From Bacteroidales bacterium (GTDB lineage: Bacteria > Bacteroidota > Bacteroidia > Bacteroidales > F082), in the NCBI GenBank assembly GCA_024709145.1, contig JANJXG010000006.1, positions 102,550-146,410 on the forward strand: 43,861 nt of DNA, written 5' to 3'. Position 1 is the stretch's first letter. Each line of letters opens with the position of its first letter. The position numbers and the translations under genes are program-made. The notes under the pieces are model-generated. The model ran no database searches. It was not told the DNA's origin and saw nothing but the letters and a program-made list of their open reading frames with translations. Of this stretch, positions 206 to 8,627 are shown one piece after another.

Positions 206-649
206 TCAATCTCCAATTTGCATAAGTACATCGCCTTCCATCACATTATCACCTTTGCGTGTATTAATGGCTGTTACTTTTCCCTCTTTGTCGGCATGAA
301 TGGTATTTTCCATCTTCATTGCTTCGAGCAAAAGCAGTTTTTGGCCAATTTTTACATTGTCGCCTTCCCTGACGAAAATATCAAGAATGGTCCCGGGAAG
401 GGGTGATTTGATGCTGCCTGTTCCTTTTGGACTGGCAGGATTAGCAAATTTGGCTGTGCTTGGAGCTACATCGGTGCTTGGCACACTAACTGTTCGAACC
501 AGACGGGGTGTCTTGGTGGGCTGAAGTTGCTTGTCGACCTCAACTTTATAAGTTGTTCCATTCACCTCGACTTCGGCAATATTTCCATCAATGTTTTGGA
601 TTTCAACATCATATATATTGCCATTGATTGTAAACTTGAATCTTTTCAT
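206..649 (-). CDS. Biotin carboxyl carrier protein (gamma subunit of methylmalonyl-CoA decarboxylase)
   Basis: 147 aa. The C-terminal ~70 residues form a biotinyl/lipoyl attachment domain with the motif EAMKMEN at about 109-115; Lys112 is the expected biotinylated residue. The N-terminal 40 residues ([17 protein letters not shown]) are a small beta-rich segment, joined through a Pro/Thr/Ser/Ala-rich flexible linker (about 43-80), as usual in decarboxylase carriers. It would carry CO2 from MmdA to the OadB pump. It lies between the LTD-OadG gene and oadB. The short linker and operon position favour a decarboxylase carrier over the BCCP of acetyl-CoA carboxylase. Confidence 0.95.
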
Positions 650-675
650 AAATTTATCTATATGCGACTTTATGA

Positions 676-1560
676 TTACTTATGGTATTGTCTTAAACCG
701 TAAATTTTTGAGCTCCAGGGAGAATAGGTTCTGGCAACTTTTTTTATCGTCAACACTGTTGCTTCATTGTCATGCAGTTCATTTCTGTAAAGATGCAATG
801 AGAGGGCGATGGCAGCATTTACCTCACCGGTCAGATCGAGATTATCTTCCTCAGAAGCAATAGGCTGTTTTCGCGCAAACACATGTTTTAAATCCAATGC
901 ATAAAGCCTTCTCGTATTTTTGAAAAGCAGGTAAAGCAGCATGAGTGATAAAAATACAACTGACATTGCAATCATGGCCATTCCAAAGCCAAAAGGGTCG
1001 TAAGTGATAAATTCCTGTCCTGGATTAGGGGGGTCGCCTGTATAGTTATTCGATTTGGGAGTTGTTTTTTCCAGTATTACCCAAGGCAGACCTCCGTCAG
1101 TCTGACGTCCATAGGAAGTGTCTTTTCCAATCTCGGGTATGGCAATTTCATCAATCAAGGTACTGCCATTCACATCATAAAGGGCAAGATACTTACTACC
1201 TCTCAAATCGAAATTAAGATGCAGGATCCCGCGGGTTGGATGATTGTCGGCAAAAAACACCAGGTAATTGCGTGCAGGAATCACAGTGATGGGATCACCT
1301 TTGGGAATGGGATACTTTGTCGGGTTGCTGTGATCGTTGGTTAGATACATTCCCCCGATATTCACTTTGTTGTAAGCAGTATTGAATAATTCGATCCATG
1401 CATTGCGTTGTCCGAAGTCATCCATATAGTTGGAATCGTTTTCAACAAGTATTTCGTTGATTCTGATGTCCATGCCACTTTGTGCTACAGCTTTGTACTG
1501 GGGCAGCAACAAGAGGAGACAAGCTGCGATAGTTTTGAAGAATAGTTGAATCTTATCCAT
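676..1560 (-). CDS. Lamin-tail-domain/OadG fusion, putative delta (membrane anchor) subunit of methylmalonyl-CoA decarboxylase
   Basis: 294 aa from the ATG at 1560, chosen because it starts directly with a signal peptide (MDKIQLFFKTIAACLLLLLP, cleavage near AVAQS), whereas longer frames run back into mmdA. Residues ~29-165 look like a lamin tail domain (INEILVENDS, NAWIELFN, GGMYLTND, YLVFFADN), expected outside the membrane. One hydrophobic segment follows at ~190-214, then a cytoplasmic tail (AAIALSLHLYRNELHDNE) resembling OadG. OadG-type subunits hold the carboxyltransferase to the beta pump. The gene sits 10 bp after mmdA and before the carrier gene. OadG proteins of Proteobacteria are near 80-100 aa, so most of this protein is an added extracytoplasmic domain of unknown role. 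Confidence 0.8.
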   Translation of the reverse strand: MDKIQLFFKTIAACLLLLLPQYKAVAQSGMDIRINEILVENDSNYMDDFGQRNAWIELFNTAYNKVNIGGMYLTNDHSNPTKYPIPKGDPITVIPARNYLVFFADNHPTRGILHLNFDLRGSKYLALYDVNGSTLIDEIAIPEIGKDTSYGRQTDGGLPWVILEKTTPKSNNYTGDPPNPGQEFITYDPFGFGMAMIAMSVVFLSLMLLYLLFKNTRRLYALDLKHVFARKQPIASEEDNLDLTGEVNAAIALSLHLYRNELHDNEATVLTIKKVARTYSPWSSKIYGLRQYHK

Positions 1561-1570
1561 AATCAACAAC

Positions 1571-3130
1571 TTACAATGGAAGGTTAGAATGTTTCTTCGG
1601 CAGATTCGTATCTTTTTTCGTTGCAAGCGCCTGAAATGCCCTGATCACCCGGAATCGTGTATTTCGCGGTTCAATCACATCATCGATGTAACCATATTTT
1701 GCAGCATTGTAGGGATTTGCAAATTTTTCACGGTACTCAGACTCATGTTGTGAAATAAAAGCTTCTTTTTCGGCCGGATCAGAAATTTCTGACAATTTTT
1801 TGTTGTGAAGCACTTCAATAGCCCCTTTGGCTCCCATCACTGCTATCTCGGCGCCCGGCCATGCATAATTAATATCGCCCCGCAGGTGTTTGGAGCTCAT
1901 AACACAATAGGCACCGCCATATGCTTTACGAAGAATAACCGTAACTTTTGGAACGGTTGCTTCACCGTAGGCATAAAGCAGTTTGGCACCGTGTATGATA
2001 ATGCCTCCATATTCCTGAGCCGTACCAGGTAAGAAGCCGGGAACGTCAACCAATGTCAAAATTGGGATGTTGAACGCATCACAGAACCTTACAAAGCGGG
2101 CCGCTTTGCGTGAAGCATTAATATCCAGTACACCGGCAAGGTAATTGGGTTGATTGGCTACTATACCCACCGGCATGCCGTTGAACCGTGCAAAGCCTGT
2201 TACAATATTGGGTGCATAATATCGCTGTATTTCCAAAAACTCATTGATGTCAACAATGGCATGAATCACATCTTTTACATCATATGGTTTGTTTGGATTG
2301 TCGGGAATGATGTAATTAAGGCTGTCTTCCAATCTGTTGATTGGATCACTGCACATGTTTAACGAAGGATCTTCAAGGTTGTTCTGCGGAATATAACTAA
2401 CGAGTTTTCTGATTAGTTGAATGCCTTCTTGCTCGTCTTCTGCAATAAAGTGCGCGATACCTGACTTGGAAGCATGCACCATTGCGCCGCCAAGCTGCTC
2501 TTCGGTAACACTTTCACCAGTGACAGTTTTGACAACTTTCGGACCTGTTACAAACATATTCGACTGATCTTTGCTCATGATGATGAAGTCAGTAAGCGCC
2601 GGTGAATAGACTGCTCCGCCTGCACAAGGGCCAAAAATGGCTGATATCTGAGGGATAACCCCTGAAGCCATGATATTACGCTGAAAAATTTCTGCATACC
2701 CTGCCAGACTGTTGACGCCTTCCTGAATACGCGCGCCACCTGAGTCATTAATACCGATTATTGGTGCACCAACTTTCATCGCCTGATCCATCACTTTGCA
2801 GATTTTGTTGGCATAGGCTTCTGACAAGGAACCTCCGAAAACGGTGAAATCCTGCGAGTAAACGTAAACTACGCGTCCATCGATTGTTCCATGACCGGTA
2901 ACAACACCATCGGATAAAATTTCCTGCTTGTCAAGGTTAAAGTTGTTGCAACGGTGTGTTACAAACATGTCGAATTCTTCAAAACTCGATTCGTCGAGCA
3001 GGAGTTCGATGCGCTCGCGGGCAGTAAGTTTGCCTTTGGCATGTTGTGCATCAATTTTCTTTTCTCCACCACCTTTTTTGGCTTCAACTCTCTTATTCAG
3101 GAGTTCCTGAATTTTTGCTTCGAAAGACAT
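1571..3130 (-). CDS. mmdA: Methylmalonyl-CoA decarboxylase alpha subunit / acyl-CoA carboxylase carboxyltransferase
   Basis: 519 aa, the usual length for the family. Crotonase-fold carboxyltransferase with both halves present: GGARIQEG at about 131-138 and [15 protein letters not shown] at about 168-182 (N-terminal domain), VDVPGFLPG at about 361-369 and AYGGAYCVM at about 403-411 (C-terminal domain). It transfers the carboxyl group from methylmalonyl-CoA to biotin. The same fold serves propionyl-CoA carboxylase beta; the adjacent OadG, biotin carrier and OadB, with no biotin carboxylase gene in view, favour the Na+-pumping decarboxylase. The upstream epimerase supplies the correct stereoisomer. 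Reversible carboxylase use cannot be excluded from sequence. Confidence 0.95.
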
Positions 3131-3142
3131 ATTGGTAAGTTT

Positions 3143-3559
3143 TTAGATTTTACTGTTTTTATCTTCACAAAGCTCTGTCAACACGCCAAAGGTTGATTTT
3201 GGATGTAAAAAGGCGATGTGCATCCCTTCGGCTCCTTTGCGTGGCTTCTCATCAATTAATTTGATGCCGGCTGCCTTTGCTTCTTCCAGTGATGCTTCCA
3301 ATCCATTGACAGCAAAGGCAATGTGATGAATACCCTCGCCTTTTTTCTCGATGAATTTGCCTACCGGACCTTCAGGATCGGTTGATTCAAGCAGTTCAAT
3401 TTTTGTCTGCCCGATTTTAAAAAATGCAGTCTTGACACGCTGGTCTTTTACTTCCTCAATAGCATAACAAGTTGTGCCCAAAAGGTGTTCGTAATAGGGA
3501 ATCGCCTCTTCTAATGACTTAACGGCGATTCCAATGTGTTCAATATGAGATGGTTTCAT
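3143..3559 (-). CDS. mce: Methylmalonyl-CoA epimerase
   Basis: 138 aa, single VOC-superfamily domain pair. N-terminal [19 protein letters not shown], central [19 protein letters not shown] and C-terminal GVLTELCE place the expected His/Glu metal ligands in the two repeated beta-alpha modules. The enzyme interconverts (R)- and (S)-methylmalonyl-CoA and connects methylmalonyl-CoA mutase to the decarboxylase. It is the first gene of the operon, 12 bp before mmdA. A TACTTTTG -7 element (3585-3592) and a palindrome lie just upstream. Family length is about 130-150 aa, so the protein is complete. Confidence 0.93.
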
Positions 3560-5265: not shown

Positions 5266-6651
5266 TTACTTGTGAACTTTCTTCACAAAATTTTCCACCT
5301 CAGGAACACCTCCCTGATAAACAAGATATCCGTTGTAGGGTTCGCGCTGGGTAATTTCATCATTTACCGGAGTAAGCATAAGCCGCTTAACCTCATCGGG
5401 ATCGTCGGTCTGCCCCAGGATCCAGCTTAGTTTAACCCATGCTACTTCGGGCAGCATATTACCTGTGGGAATAATTCCTTTAGCCATCATGTCGCGGCCG
5501 GTATCATACACAAACATATGCACATAACCCCAGATGGTTTGCAAAGTCATAAACATGTGCACGCCTTTGGCATGAGCCCTTTCGATGGCCGGGTATAATT
5601 CCTTGTTCACATGACCGAGACCTGTTCCAACGATGATAATACCCCGATAACCAGCATTCACGAGCGCATCGAGGGTGTCGGGTTTCATGCCGGGGTAATA
5701 ATACAACATCGTTACCTCATCGCTGAAATAAGGCAAAATCCTGACATTTTTGTCGTTGCGCCGTTTGTTGTATGTTTTGTGGATCGGAGTTACTTTTTCC
5801 CTGTTTACCATCGCGAGGGGAGTGTCACCAATGGTGCGGAAAGTACTTCGGTAGCTTGAGTGCATCTTTCTGACGCGGGTTCCTTTGTGTAGCAGGCCAT
5901 ATTCATCAGAAGTAGGGCCAAACATACAAACCATCACCTCAGCAATATCGGCTGTTCCGGCTGTCTTCATGGCATGCATCAGGTTGAGCGCGGCATCGGA
6001 GCTGGGCCTGTCCGACGATCTTTGAGAACCGACAAGCACTACAGGAACCGGCAAGTTTTGACACATAAAAGTAAGCGCAGCACCCGTATGGTGGAGCGTG
6101 TCGGTTCCATGGCCTATAACAATACCATCCACACCCAGTTCAATTTCTTTTCCAATTGCTTTGGCCAGCGCAATATATTGTTTTGGCCCCATGTTTTCGC
6201 TGAAAACAGCAAAAAGCTTTTCTGTTTCAAGGTTGCAAATGTCAGCCAGTTCCGGAACGGCCCCATACAGTTCGCCGGGTGAAAAAGCCGGAATTACGGC
6301 ACCTGTGCGGTAATCAAGCCTGGAAGCAATGGTGCCGCCTGTGCCAAAAAGTTTGACTTTTGGCAAGCCCGGTGTCACTGGAAACTGTTTTTCCGGAATT
6401 TTATAATTGGCTTTCTTATAACCGGTTTCTTTCATCGAAAGTACGGTCGCCACATCGATACCGACATTGTAACCTGTGGCAATTTTCATTACAACATGCT
6501 GATCATCATCATTTTCCGACCGTGGTAGAATTGTTCCGATGAAGGTGCCCCGCGTTGTTTCAACTTCGGCCTGACCCCAAACACGGGTGCTGAATTTCTT
6601 CAGCAATTCAAGTGCTGATCCTTTGTAACCTTGAAAAATATCTTCGCTCAT
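5266..6651 (-). CDS. gatD: Glutamyl-tRNA(Gln) amidotransferase subunit D (asparaginase-like, archaeal type)
   Basis: 461 aa. The N-terminal ~95 residues (GSALELLKKF, VWGQAEVETTRGTFIGTILP) form the small barrel domain specific to GatD and absent from plain L-asparaginases. The asparaginase-like domain follows with LFGTGGTIAS (101-110, nucleophile Thr107), HGTDTLHHT (181-189, Thr183/Asp184), SSDRPSSDA and GTRVRKMHSS (Lys262), so the catalytic set looks intact. GatD releases ammonia from glutamine or asparagine for GatE. The ATG overlaps the TGA of gatE by four bases (ATGA), indicating coupled translation of the two subunits. GatDE is usually described as archaeal, so finding it in a Bacteroidota context suggests transfer. 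Confidence 0.93.
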   Translation of the reverse strand: MSEDIFQGYKGSALELLKKFSTRVWGQAEVETTRGTFIGTILPRSENDDDQHVVMKIATGYNVGIDVATVLSMKETGYKKANYKIPEKQFPVTPGLPKVKLFGTGGTIASRLDYRTGAVIPAFSPGELYGAVPELADICNLETEKLFAVFSENMGPKQYIALAKAIGKEIELGVDGIVIGHGTDTLHHTGAALTFMCQNLPVPVVLVGSQRSSDRPSSDAALNLMHAMKTAGTADIAEVMVCMFGPTSDEYGLLHKGTRVRKMHSSYRSTFRTIGDTPLAMVNREKVTPIHKTYNKRRNDKNVRILPYFSDEVTMLYYYPGMKPDTLDALVNAGYRGIIIVGTGLGHVNKELYPAIERAHAKGVHMFMTLQTIWGYVHMFVYDTGRDMMAKGIIPTGNMLPEVAWVKLSWILGQTDDPDEVKRLMLTPVNDEITQREPYNGYLVYQGGVPEVENFVKKVHK

Positions 6652-8627
6652 TGTTCTGTGCTGATAATGTAATTAGCCAAATGTGTTAAGTTGATGTTGC
6701 CTGCTGCAGTTTTGCGAAGTTGACCCATAATCCAGTTTTGCCGGTGCTTTGGATCAGTTTTTCCTTTAATTGGAACAAATTTTTGCAGAAGCGTTGATAT
6801 CTTGCTTTTTATGTCAGCATCGGCAACGCGTTTAAATTTCATGATAGTCAGGGCCGATTCAAATTCTATCCTTGGGTGCTCCATCAGAATCGGAAGCATG
6901 TGCCAGGCCAACACCGGATCGAGGTTTTCAGTCTTAAGAAACTCAAATAAATGGTAGATTTTTCCCGGTTTAAAGCGGCTGTTATTCTTTTTTCCCATCA
7001 GGTTTTTCAGTCGGTGACCAATAAACGTTCCAACCATCGAGGGTTGGTATTGAAAATCATTGACAATTCGTTCCAGCAAAGGATAAAGATTTTTACTGAG
7101 AATAAACGTAAAAGTATCCTCAGGCACAGCCCATTGCTGAAGTTGTTGGTAGCGTTGAATGATGTCGGTGGGTAGATTTTTTCCAAGAGTGCTGATGAGT
7201 TTATCATCAAGGGGGATAGGAGCGGAGTCTGTGTCAGGATACATGCGATCTGCACCGGGTAGTACTCTTTCAAAGATTGTGGTACCGTCGGCAAAGGATT
7301 TTCTTGTTTCAGGTGGGATGCCTTCAAAAGCCATCCTGCACCTTTCTTCGATGGTTTCGAGGGCTGTGGGTATATCAGCTTCGGGTCCCCAAACCAGGAT
7401 GAGAGCGTCATCGTAACCGGCTGCTGCTTTTCGGGCAAATTGTTTCCACTCAGCCGATGGAATTTCCTCTTTCAGCATTTCGCTGTGCAGCAAATTAGGT
7501 TTCTCAAGGCAAGCAATCACCTTTAGCCGGTCGCTGATCTCATCAGCAAAGCATTTGCCCGGCTGTGTAAAATGTGATAATGCTCCCTTGAAGCCTGGCA
7601 ACCTGATCAGCATAACTGGTTGCTTTCGTGCAATGGCTTGTGCCAGCGGTGCATACATCAACTGGTCGTCATCAGGAATCAAGGGCCTGGATTCAATGCG
7701 CCAATTAGCAGGATCGGTGATTTTAAGTTTTAACTGTTCTTTCAAAAGCAAAAGCGACCATTGTCTGAATGCCTCATTGTGAGTGAGTTCAGGTATCCAT
7801 CTTGTGTGTGCAACACCTTTTATTTCAACACGGCTTCCTCCTCGGCAACTAACGTTAACATCCTGTCGGCCGCTTCCGATGCCAGTGCGCACTTTACCGG
7901 TGCTTCTGTTTAGAAACCTGATATAATCGCAAGCTTCTTTTACCTCATCGGGATTTACACAATCGGGATAAGTGACTGTTTCGATGAGGGGCATTCCCAG
8001 GCGGTCGGTTTTATAAATGCGAATATGTCCAATGTCGGATATTTCGCGGCATGAATCCTCTTCTATACTTAATTGAATGAGCCTTACAGTCTTATTTTTA
8101 AGTTGAATCTGGCCTTCCACACCGATGATCGCTGTGCGCTGAAATCCGGTAGGAATGCTTCCATCGAGATATTGTTTTCGTGTGATGTGCACCTCACCAA
8201 CAATATTAAGTTTCGACAGCAAGGAAATTTCAATGGCAATTTCAAGTGCTTCCTTGTTGATCGGAAAGGGTGGGGTGTCGTCCACTTCATACGTACAGGC
8301 TGTTTCATTACGCAAGCGGTAGATGATTTCTTTTCGGGTTTTGAACTCCATGAGTGCAGTGCCGTCGTACTCTCCAAGTTCGCTCAGCGTTGGACGCATG
8401 TGCCGAACCAGCTCGGCATCGTAAGTGTCGCTTTTGTTGTAGATACCCGCAGGACAATGGCAGAACAGCTTTTCGCGGGTGAGCAATTGCTGGTGCACTT
8501 CAAGGCCTGACATAAATCCAATACGGTCATAGTTTTGTTGAGTCGCGTTTTTGCGGGAAACATAGCCGGCTTTGCGCTTGCTGGCTTCATAGTTTGCCTG
8601 GGGGTCAAAAGCTGTTTCCATTGACAT
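6648..8627 (-). CDS. gatE: Glutamyl-tRNA(Gln) amidotransferase subunit E (archaeal type)
   Basis: 659 aa. GatB-like cradle at ~35-290: IGFMSGLEVHQQL, KLFCHCPAG, QLSIEEDSCREI, TGIGSGRQDVNVS, EIKGV. Residues ~295-470 hold the AspRS-like insert that separates GatE from GatB, with WGPEADIPTALETIEERC, GIPPETRKSF and ADRMYPDTDSAPIPLDD. A helical region and YqeY-like tail follow to the end (LRKTAAGNINLTHLANYII). GatE activates the glutamate on Glu-tRNA(Gln) with ATP and uses ammonia from GatD to make Gln-tRNA(Gln). The first ~33 residues are an extension before the conserved core. The start at 8627 is chosen because it is the most upstream ATG; a second ATG lies at 8621. The insert rules out ordinary GatB. 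Confidence 0.93.
   Translation of the reverse strand: MSMETAFDPQANYEASKRKAGYVSRKNATQQNYDRIGFMSGLEVHQQLLTREKLFCHCPAGIYNKSDTYDAELVRHMRPTLSELGEYDGTALMEFKTRKEIIYRLRNETACTYEVDDTPPFPINKEALEIAIEISLLSKLNIVGEVHITRKQYLDGSIPTGFQRTAIIGVEGQIQLKNKTVRLIQLSIEEDSCREISDIGHIRIYKTDRLGMPLIETVTYPDCVNPDEVKEACDYIRFLNRSTGKVRTGIGSGRQDVNVSCRGGSRVEIKGVAHTRWIPELTHNEAFRQWSLLLLKEQLKLKITDPANWRIESRPLIPDDDQLMYAPLAQAIARKQPVMLIRLPGFKGALSHFTQPGKCFADEISDRLKVIACLEKPNLLHSEMLKEEIPSAEWKQFARKAAAGYDDALILVWGPEADIPTALETIEERCRMAFEGIPPETRKSFADGTTIFERVLPGADRMYPDTDSAPIPLDDKLISTLGKNLPTDIIQRYQQLQQWAVPEDTFTFILSKNLYPLLERIVNDFQYQPSMVGTFIGHRLKNLMGKKNNSRFKPGKIYHLFEFLKTENLDPVLAWHMLPILMEHPRIEFESALTIMKFKRVADADIKSKISTLLQKFVPIKGKTDPKHRQNWIMGQLRKTAAGNINLTHLANYIISTEQ

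Follow-up and report, generated by a model that had tools for sequence, protein, structure and literature searches.

The window analysed here, a stretch of 43,861 nucleotides from a contig of a Bacteroidales bacterium, contains on its reverse strand the two adjacent genes of an archaeal-type Glu-tRNA(Gln) amidotransferase, GatDE. The first of them, gatE (positions 6648–8627), codes for subunit E of 659 aa, and the second, gatD (5266–6651), for the asparaginase-like glutaminase subunit D of 461 aa. As the original prediction had stated, the stop codon of gatE and the start codon of gatD overlap by four bases (6648–6651, reverse strand), and both genes are intact. The overlap suggests that translation of the two genes is coupled. 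Elsewhere in the window, at positions 206–3559, genes for a biotin carrier, a carboxyltransferase and a glyoxalase-fold protein stand in a row, with a gene for a lamin-tail-domain protein between them; the row resembles a methylmalonyl-CoA decarboxylase cluster.

Assignment of the two subunits

GatD passes the cut-offs of both GatD models (TIGR02153, 489 bits against 324; NF003217, 493 bits against 310). With 367.5 bits it also exceeds the cut-off of the type I asparaginase model (260.5), although the GatD models score higher. The GatD N-terminal domain (PF18195, 37.1 bits) and both asparaginase domains were detected in the domain scan. Four residues, which we take to be the catalytic positions, are encoded on the reverse strand at 6340–6342 (T104, the first Thr of TGGTIAS), 6100–6105 (T183 and D184 of HGTDT) and 5866–5868 (K262). 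In an alignment of GatD sequences from 124 loci and the window (125 rows), T104 is Thr in 124 rows and faces a gap in one, T183 and D184 are kept in all 122 rows with a letter, and K262 in 119 of the 120 rows with a letter. The Thr/Asp/Lys set is therefore intact, as had been claimed, and is conserved across bacterial GatD.

GatE passes TIGR00134 (397 bits, cut-off 319.55; the match covers 3–610 of 622) and lies 5 bits below the cut-off of NF003107 (451 against 456 bits), but it fails the GatB equivalog model TIGR00133 by a wide margin (112.6 bits, cut-off 314.8). The best structural match of the predicted GatE model is archaeal GatE, and the fold includes the AspRS-like insert that had been proposed, at residues 306–436 (7320–7712, reverse strand). 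The helical region and tail of GatE, at about residues 475–659 (6651–7205, reverse strand), for which a YqeY-like tail had been proposed, are predicted to form helices, and in structure comparison GatB chains align with this part of the model as far as residue 659. An alignment of 15 bacterial and two archaeal GatE sequences revealed many invariant columns common to both groups, the GatE of the window being 33–35% identical to the two archaeal proteins.

By its sequence, active-site residues and predicted fold, the enzyme is a member of the GatDE family. It has in common with archaeal GatDE (1zq1, 2d6f) both subunits, the GatD N-terminal domain, the asparaginase core, the catalytic domain and AspRS-like insert of GatE, and the adjacency of the two genes. 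GatCAB carries out the same chemistry and its GatB subunit shares the catalytic domain with GatE; however, GatE of the window scores far under the gatB cut-off. A search of the genome for GatB_N found no GatB, its sole match being the GatE of the window.

Distribution of gatDE among bacteria

We searched for gatE in samples of 295 genomes of the order Bacteroidales and 395 genomes of the phylum. A gatE gene scoring over the cut-off is present in 122 of the 295 genomes of the order (126 at an E-value of 1e-40), including two of the four genomes of the family to which the window belongs. The sample of the phylum yielded 30 genomes out of 395, namely that of the window and 29 from outside its class but within the same phylum. 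The gatE matches listed (80 of 568 loci) fall mostly in Bacteroidales MAGs and in isolates of Marinifilum, Labilibaculum and Perlabentimonas; among these matches there are also MAGs named Cloacimonadota, Zixibacteria, Aminicenantes, Calditrichota, Acidobacteriota, WOR-3, Chlorobiota, Planctomycetota and Archangium. Of the two origins that had been proposed, lateral acquisition and an under-appreciated trait of Bacteroidota, the second is supported by this distribution: given its spread through the order and the phylum and its occurrence in MAGs named for other phyla, gatDE is not a lone transfer.

A quick tree was built from 71 GatE rows. A long branch separates its bacterial proteins from the archaeal ones, of which there are only two, too few to indicate a source of the bacterial genes. 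The genomes of other classes form one set and those of the order another, which is adjoined by the Cloacimonadota, Zixibacteria and similar MAGs. One genome of another class (G156) falls within the set of the order, and GatE proteins from the Archangium, Planctomycetota and Chlorobiota MAGs (loci L154, L177 and L163) are likewise nested within the Bacteroidales set. These four placements may reflect either transfer or mis-binning.

Synthetases and tRNA-Gln in gatDE-carrying genomes

The original prediction had called for a search of the genome for glnS, gatA/B/C and gltX, and had asked whether GlnRS is absent. In the genome that contains the window (3.8 Mb in 148 contigs, 99.35% complete) GlnRS is present (TIGR00440, 744 bits), together with a single GluRS of the bacterial type (TIGR00464, 496 bits). 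AspRS, LysRS and AsnRS were assigned from their sequences. Among the 40 tRNA matches listed (150 of 235 candidates were scored) are genes for tRNA-Gln(CUG), tRNA-Gln(UUG) and tRNA-Glu(UUC). The tRNA-Gln(CUG) gene begins 117 bases downstream of the GlnRS ORF on the same strand (L045, 2216–4203). In archaea the setting of GatDE is a genome without GlnRS, whereas the pair of the window sits in a bacterium with both GlnRS and a bacterial GluRS.

The same combination is common in the order. At a threshold of 1e-60, GlnRS was found in 271 of the 295 genomes, that is, in 114 of the 126 with gatE and 157 of the 169 without it; of the 76 gatE genomes whose completeness reaches 95%, 73 contain GlnRS and three contain GatB. 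GatB matches were obtained in only 14 of the 295 genomes, so that of the possibility raised beforehand, that GatDE stands in all relatives beside both GlnRS and a full GatCAB, the part concerning GlnRS largely stood and that concerning GatCAB did not. GlnRS is missing from 7 of the 14 genomes with GatB and from 17 of the 281 others (p 2e-5), an association that leans on incomplete genomes (when completeness is at least 90%, GlnRS is missing from two of the five genomes with GatB and nine of the 242 others, p 0.017). No such association was seen for gatE in the order, GlnRS being missing from 12 of the 126 genomes with gatE and from 12 of the 169 without it (p 0.52; p 1.0 at 90% completeness). 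Of the 24 genomes without a GlnRS match, four of which were identified by elimination, seven have GatB, and the remaining 17 are divided into nine with gatE and eight without, as would be expected were those assembly gaps. The notion that GatDE substitutes for GlnRS is thus not supported: it is GatB, and not gatE, that tracks missing GlnRS. Since GlnRS is present in most gatE genomes and gatE shows no link to its loss, GatDE does not replace GlnRS but is kept alongside it. In two gatE genomes of another class (G287 and G314) a single class Ic synthetase was found; both also show incomplete hits at the end of the GatE model, of the kind that GatB produces, which may point to a GatB.

Genes for GlnRS were seen beside gatDE at three loci in total. 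In G433 glnS is followed by gatE and then gatD on the same strand, the matches being separated by about 110 and 50 bases; in G014 glnS and gatD are convergent and about 14 bases apart; and at L185 glnS and gatE are divergent, about 580 bases apart. Within the limited flanks of 140 gatE loci, glnS occurs at only one locus, and GluRS, AspRS and AsnRS at none; the other two glnS neighbours were recognised from match coordinates.

A survey of tRNA-Gln in 51 genomes yielded 82 distinct genes, all of which, including both from the genome of the window, have the U1-A72 pair; their D-loops are small. Archaeal GatDE differs in this respect, its setting being tRNA-Gln with A1-U72. According to the available text of two papers, U1-A72 and a small D-loop are features that amidotransferases read in tRNA-Gln (PMC9976931, PMC4810234). 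Both are equally present in relatives without gatE and therefore do not single out GatDE. The discriminator base A73, considered as an archaeal-like mark, was rejected, as it is found in 27 of 28 cases with gatE and 29 of 29 without it in the order. The residue of GluRS equivalent to Arg358 of Thermus thermophilus is Arg in 53 of 53 sequences, and its retention in all five from genomes in which GlnRS was not found makes it uninformative as to whether GluRS charges tRNA-Gln. In Helicobacter pylori GluRS, as far as the consulted text of PMC3927822 goes, this residue acts differently.

In passages of the reviewed literature GatDE is described as exclusive to archaea (PMC8762117), as now found in archaea only (PMC9499178) or as occurring only in archaea that miss AsnRS (PMC8007984), and no archaeon is said to have GlnRS (PMC9499178). 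A report of bacterial GatDE was not recognised by title in our literature search. The available text of one genome survey takes the absence of gatCAB as a sign of a defunct indirect pathway, a label given there to nearly all Bacteroidetes that have GlnRS, and counts GlnRS without gatCAB in 12 of 14 Bacteroidetes (PMC3927822); that text mentions neither GatD nor GatE. The common occurrence of GatDE in GlnRS-bearing bacteria contradicts the statements confining it to archaea and undercuts the inference of a defunct pathway. Among the descriptions in the reviewed literature, as available, the setting of GatDE with GlnRS, a bacterial GluRS and U1-A72 tRNA-Gln is new.

Proposed role of the amidotransferase beside GlnRS

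On balance, and with modest confidence, we consider it probable that, beside GlnRS, GluRS and GatDE together provide a second route to Gln-tRNA(Gln) that acts as a back-up or in repair. GatD would free ammonia from glutamine, and GatE, with ATP and that ammonia, would amidate Glu-tRNA(Gln) supplied by the single bacterial-type GluRS of the cell. As the product would be the same as that of GlnRS, the pair would run as a second route and not as a replacement. The substrate is presumably Glu-tRNA(Gln), some of which would be made by GluRS, and the benefit may lie in extra capacity or in removal of the misacylated tRNA. In favour of a second route we count the family and fold assignment, the conserved active site, the invariant GatE columns, the linkage of gatD and gatE, the co-occurrence with GlnRS, the association of missing GlnRS with GatB but not with gatE, the three glnS neighbours and the features of tRNA-Gln; against it count the patchiness of gatE, the fact that glnS neighbours number only three, the sharing of the tRNA features by relatives without gatE, and the uninformative Arg358. 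A direct and an indirect enzyme are likewise combined in bacteria with GlnRS and GatCAB, such as Deinococcus and Bdellovibrio (PMC4206432, PMC3927822, in the text available); there, however, GatCAB is explicable by the formation of Asn-tRNA, whereas the genome of the window has AsnRS and GatDE is known for Gln only.

A more far-reaching proposal, which we put forward tentatively and regard as rather unlikely, is that GluRS and GatDE make up a functional indirect pathway that prefers a tRNA-Gln of its own and runs beside GlnRS in one cell. If true, the indirect pathway thought defunct in Bacteroidota devoid of GatCAB would be operating in much of the order. Many relatives carry the same double set of GlnRS and GatDE, and Marinifilum, Labilibaculum and Perlabentimonas offer culturable carriers for studying why two routes to Gln-tRNA are maintained in one cell.

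It appears unlikely that the pair is a relic or neutral cargo, inherited or transferred, redundant with GlnRS and in the process of being lost. Its patchy occurrence, with 19 changes of state on a GlnRS tree of 60 genomes, would be consistent with such a history, as would genome G592 (L366, 1–3438), in which gatE is not followed by gatD as the next downstream gene and two congeners of which have no gatE. However, GatD is 57–87% identical to that of the window in the 55 loci where it was found among the first 60 (some cut by the end of the stretch), and this identity, together with the invariant or nearly invariant active-site residues, argues for selection wherever the pair has been retained.

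Two structural forms of tRNA-Gln occur in Bacteroidota (loci L189–L278): a short form, and a long form in which both the D-loop and the variable loop are longer. They were cleanly separated by a long-form model built from 15 sequences, 11 of them from the order and nine of those 11 from gatE genomes, the long form being called at a best E-value of 1e-24 or lower. The genome of the window holds one of each, tRNA-Gln(CUG) being long and tRNA-Gln(UUG) short, and this raises the possibility of a division of labour in which GlnRS serves one isoacceptor or form and GluRS with GatDE another, both being needed. By plain count the long form is indeed commoner in genomes of the order with gatE, where it occurs in 92 of the 126, than in those without, where it occurs in 48 of the 169 (p 2e-14; 49 of 62 against 19 of 58 by family), also after the 11 genomes of the order used for the model are dropped (83 of 117 against 46 of 167). 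However, of 16 families varying in gatE the tRNA form varies in four, two each way, and tree-aware pairs were not significant on either a GluRS tree of 39 genomes (1.3 same against 1.1 other) or the 60-genome GlnRS tree (3.0 against 0.4, median p 0.375), the plain count in the latter set being 24 of 34 against 9 of 26. As a GatDE substrate the long form is therefore strong by count but not significant once the tree is taken into account. Moreover, several gatE genomes show a single form among the genes seen, and in 38 of the 83 genomes listed for both, glnS is followed on its own strand, no more than 1.5 kb downstream, by the long form, with gatE (27 of 62) or without it (11 of 21), so that it may belong to GlnRS. 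We thus regard a division of labour as quite improbable.

Equally improbable is a different substrate, either another aminoacyl-tRNA, for instance Asp-tRNA(Asn), or asparagine, with GatD acting mainly as an asparaginase. The presence of GlnRS makes the known task of GatDE dispensable, and GatD does pass the type I asparaginase model; but the genome has an AsnRS, named from its sequence, GatD scores higher with the GatD models, and gatE stays with gatD in 127 of 140 loci. An assembly chimera or archaeal contamination, which had been named as a possible refutation, is extremely improbable and was rejected, since gatDE lies mid-contig among Gram-negative neighbours, its GC content is normal and it recurs in many genomes, isolates among them, while nothing was found in favour of such an origin.

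Two further observations concern GlnRS genes. In one family (f57; G395 C60, G609 C16 and G512 C7) the GlnRS matches of all three genomes contain one in-frame stop codon (TAG, TAG and TAA). In four genomes of other classes (G116 C81, G156 C94, G172 C4 and G294 C1) matches to GluRS and GlnRS share a strand and are separated by about 600 bases.
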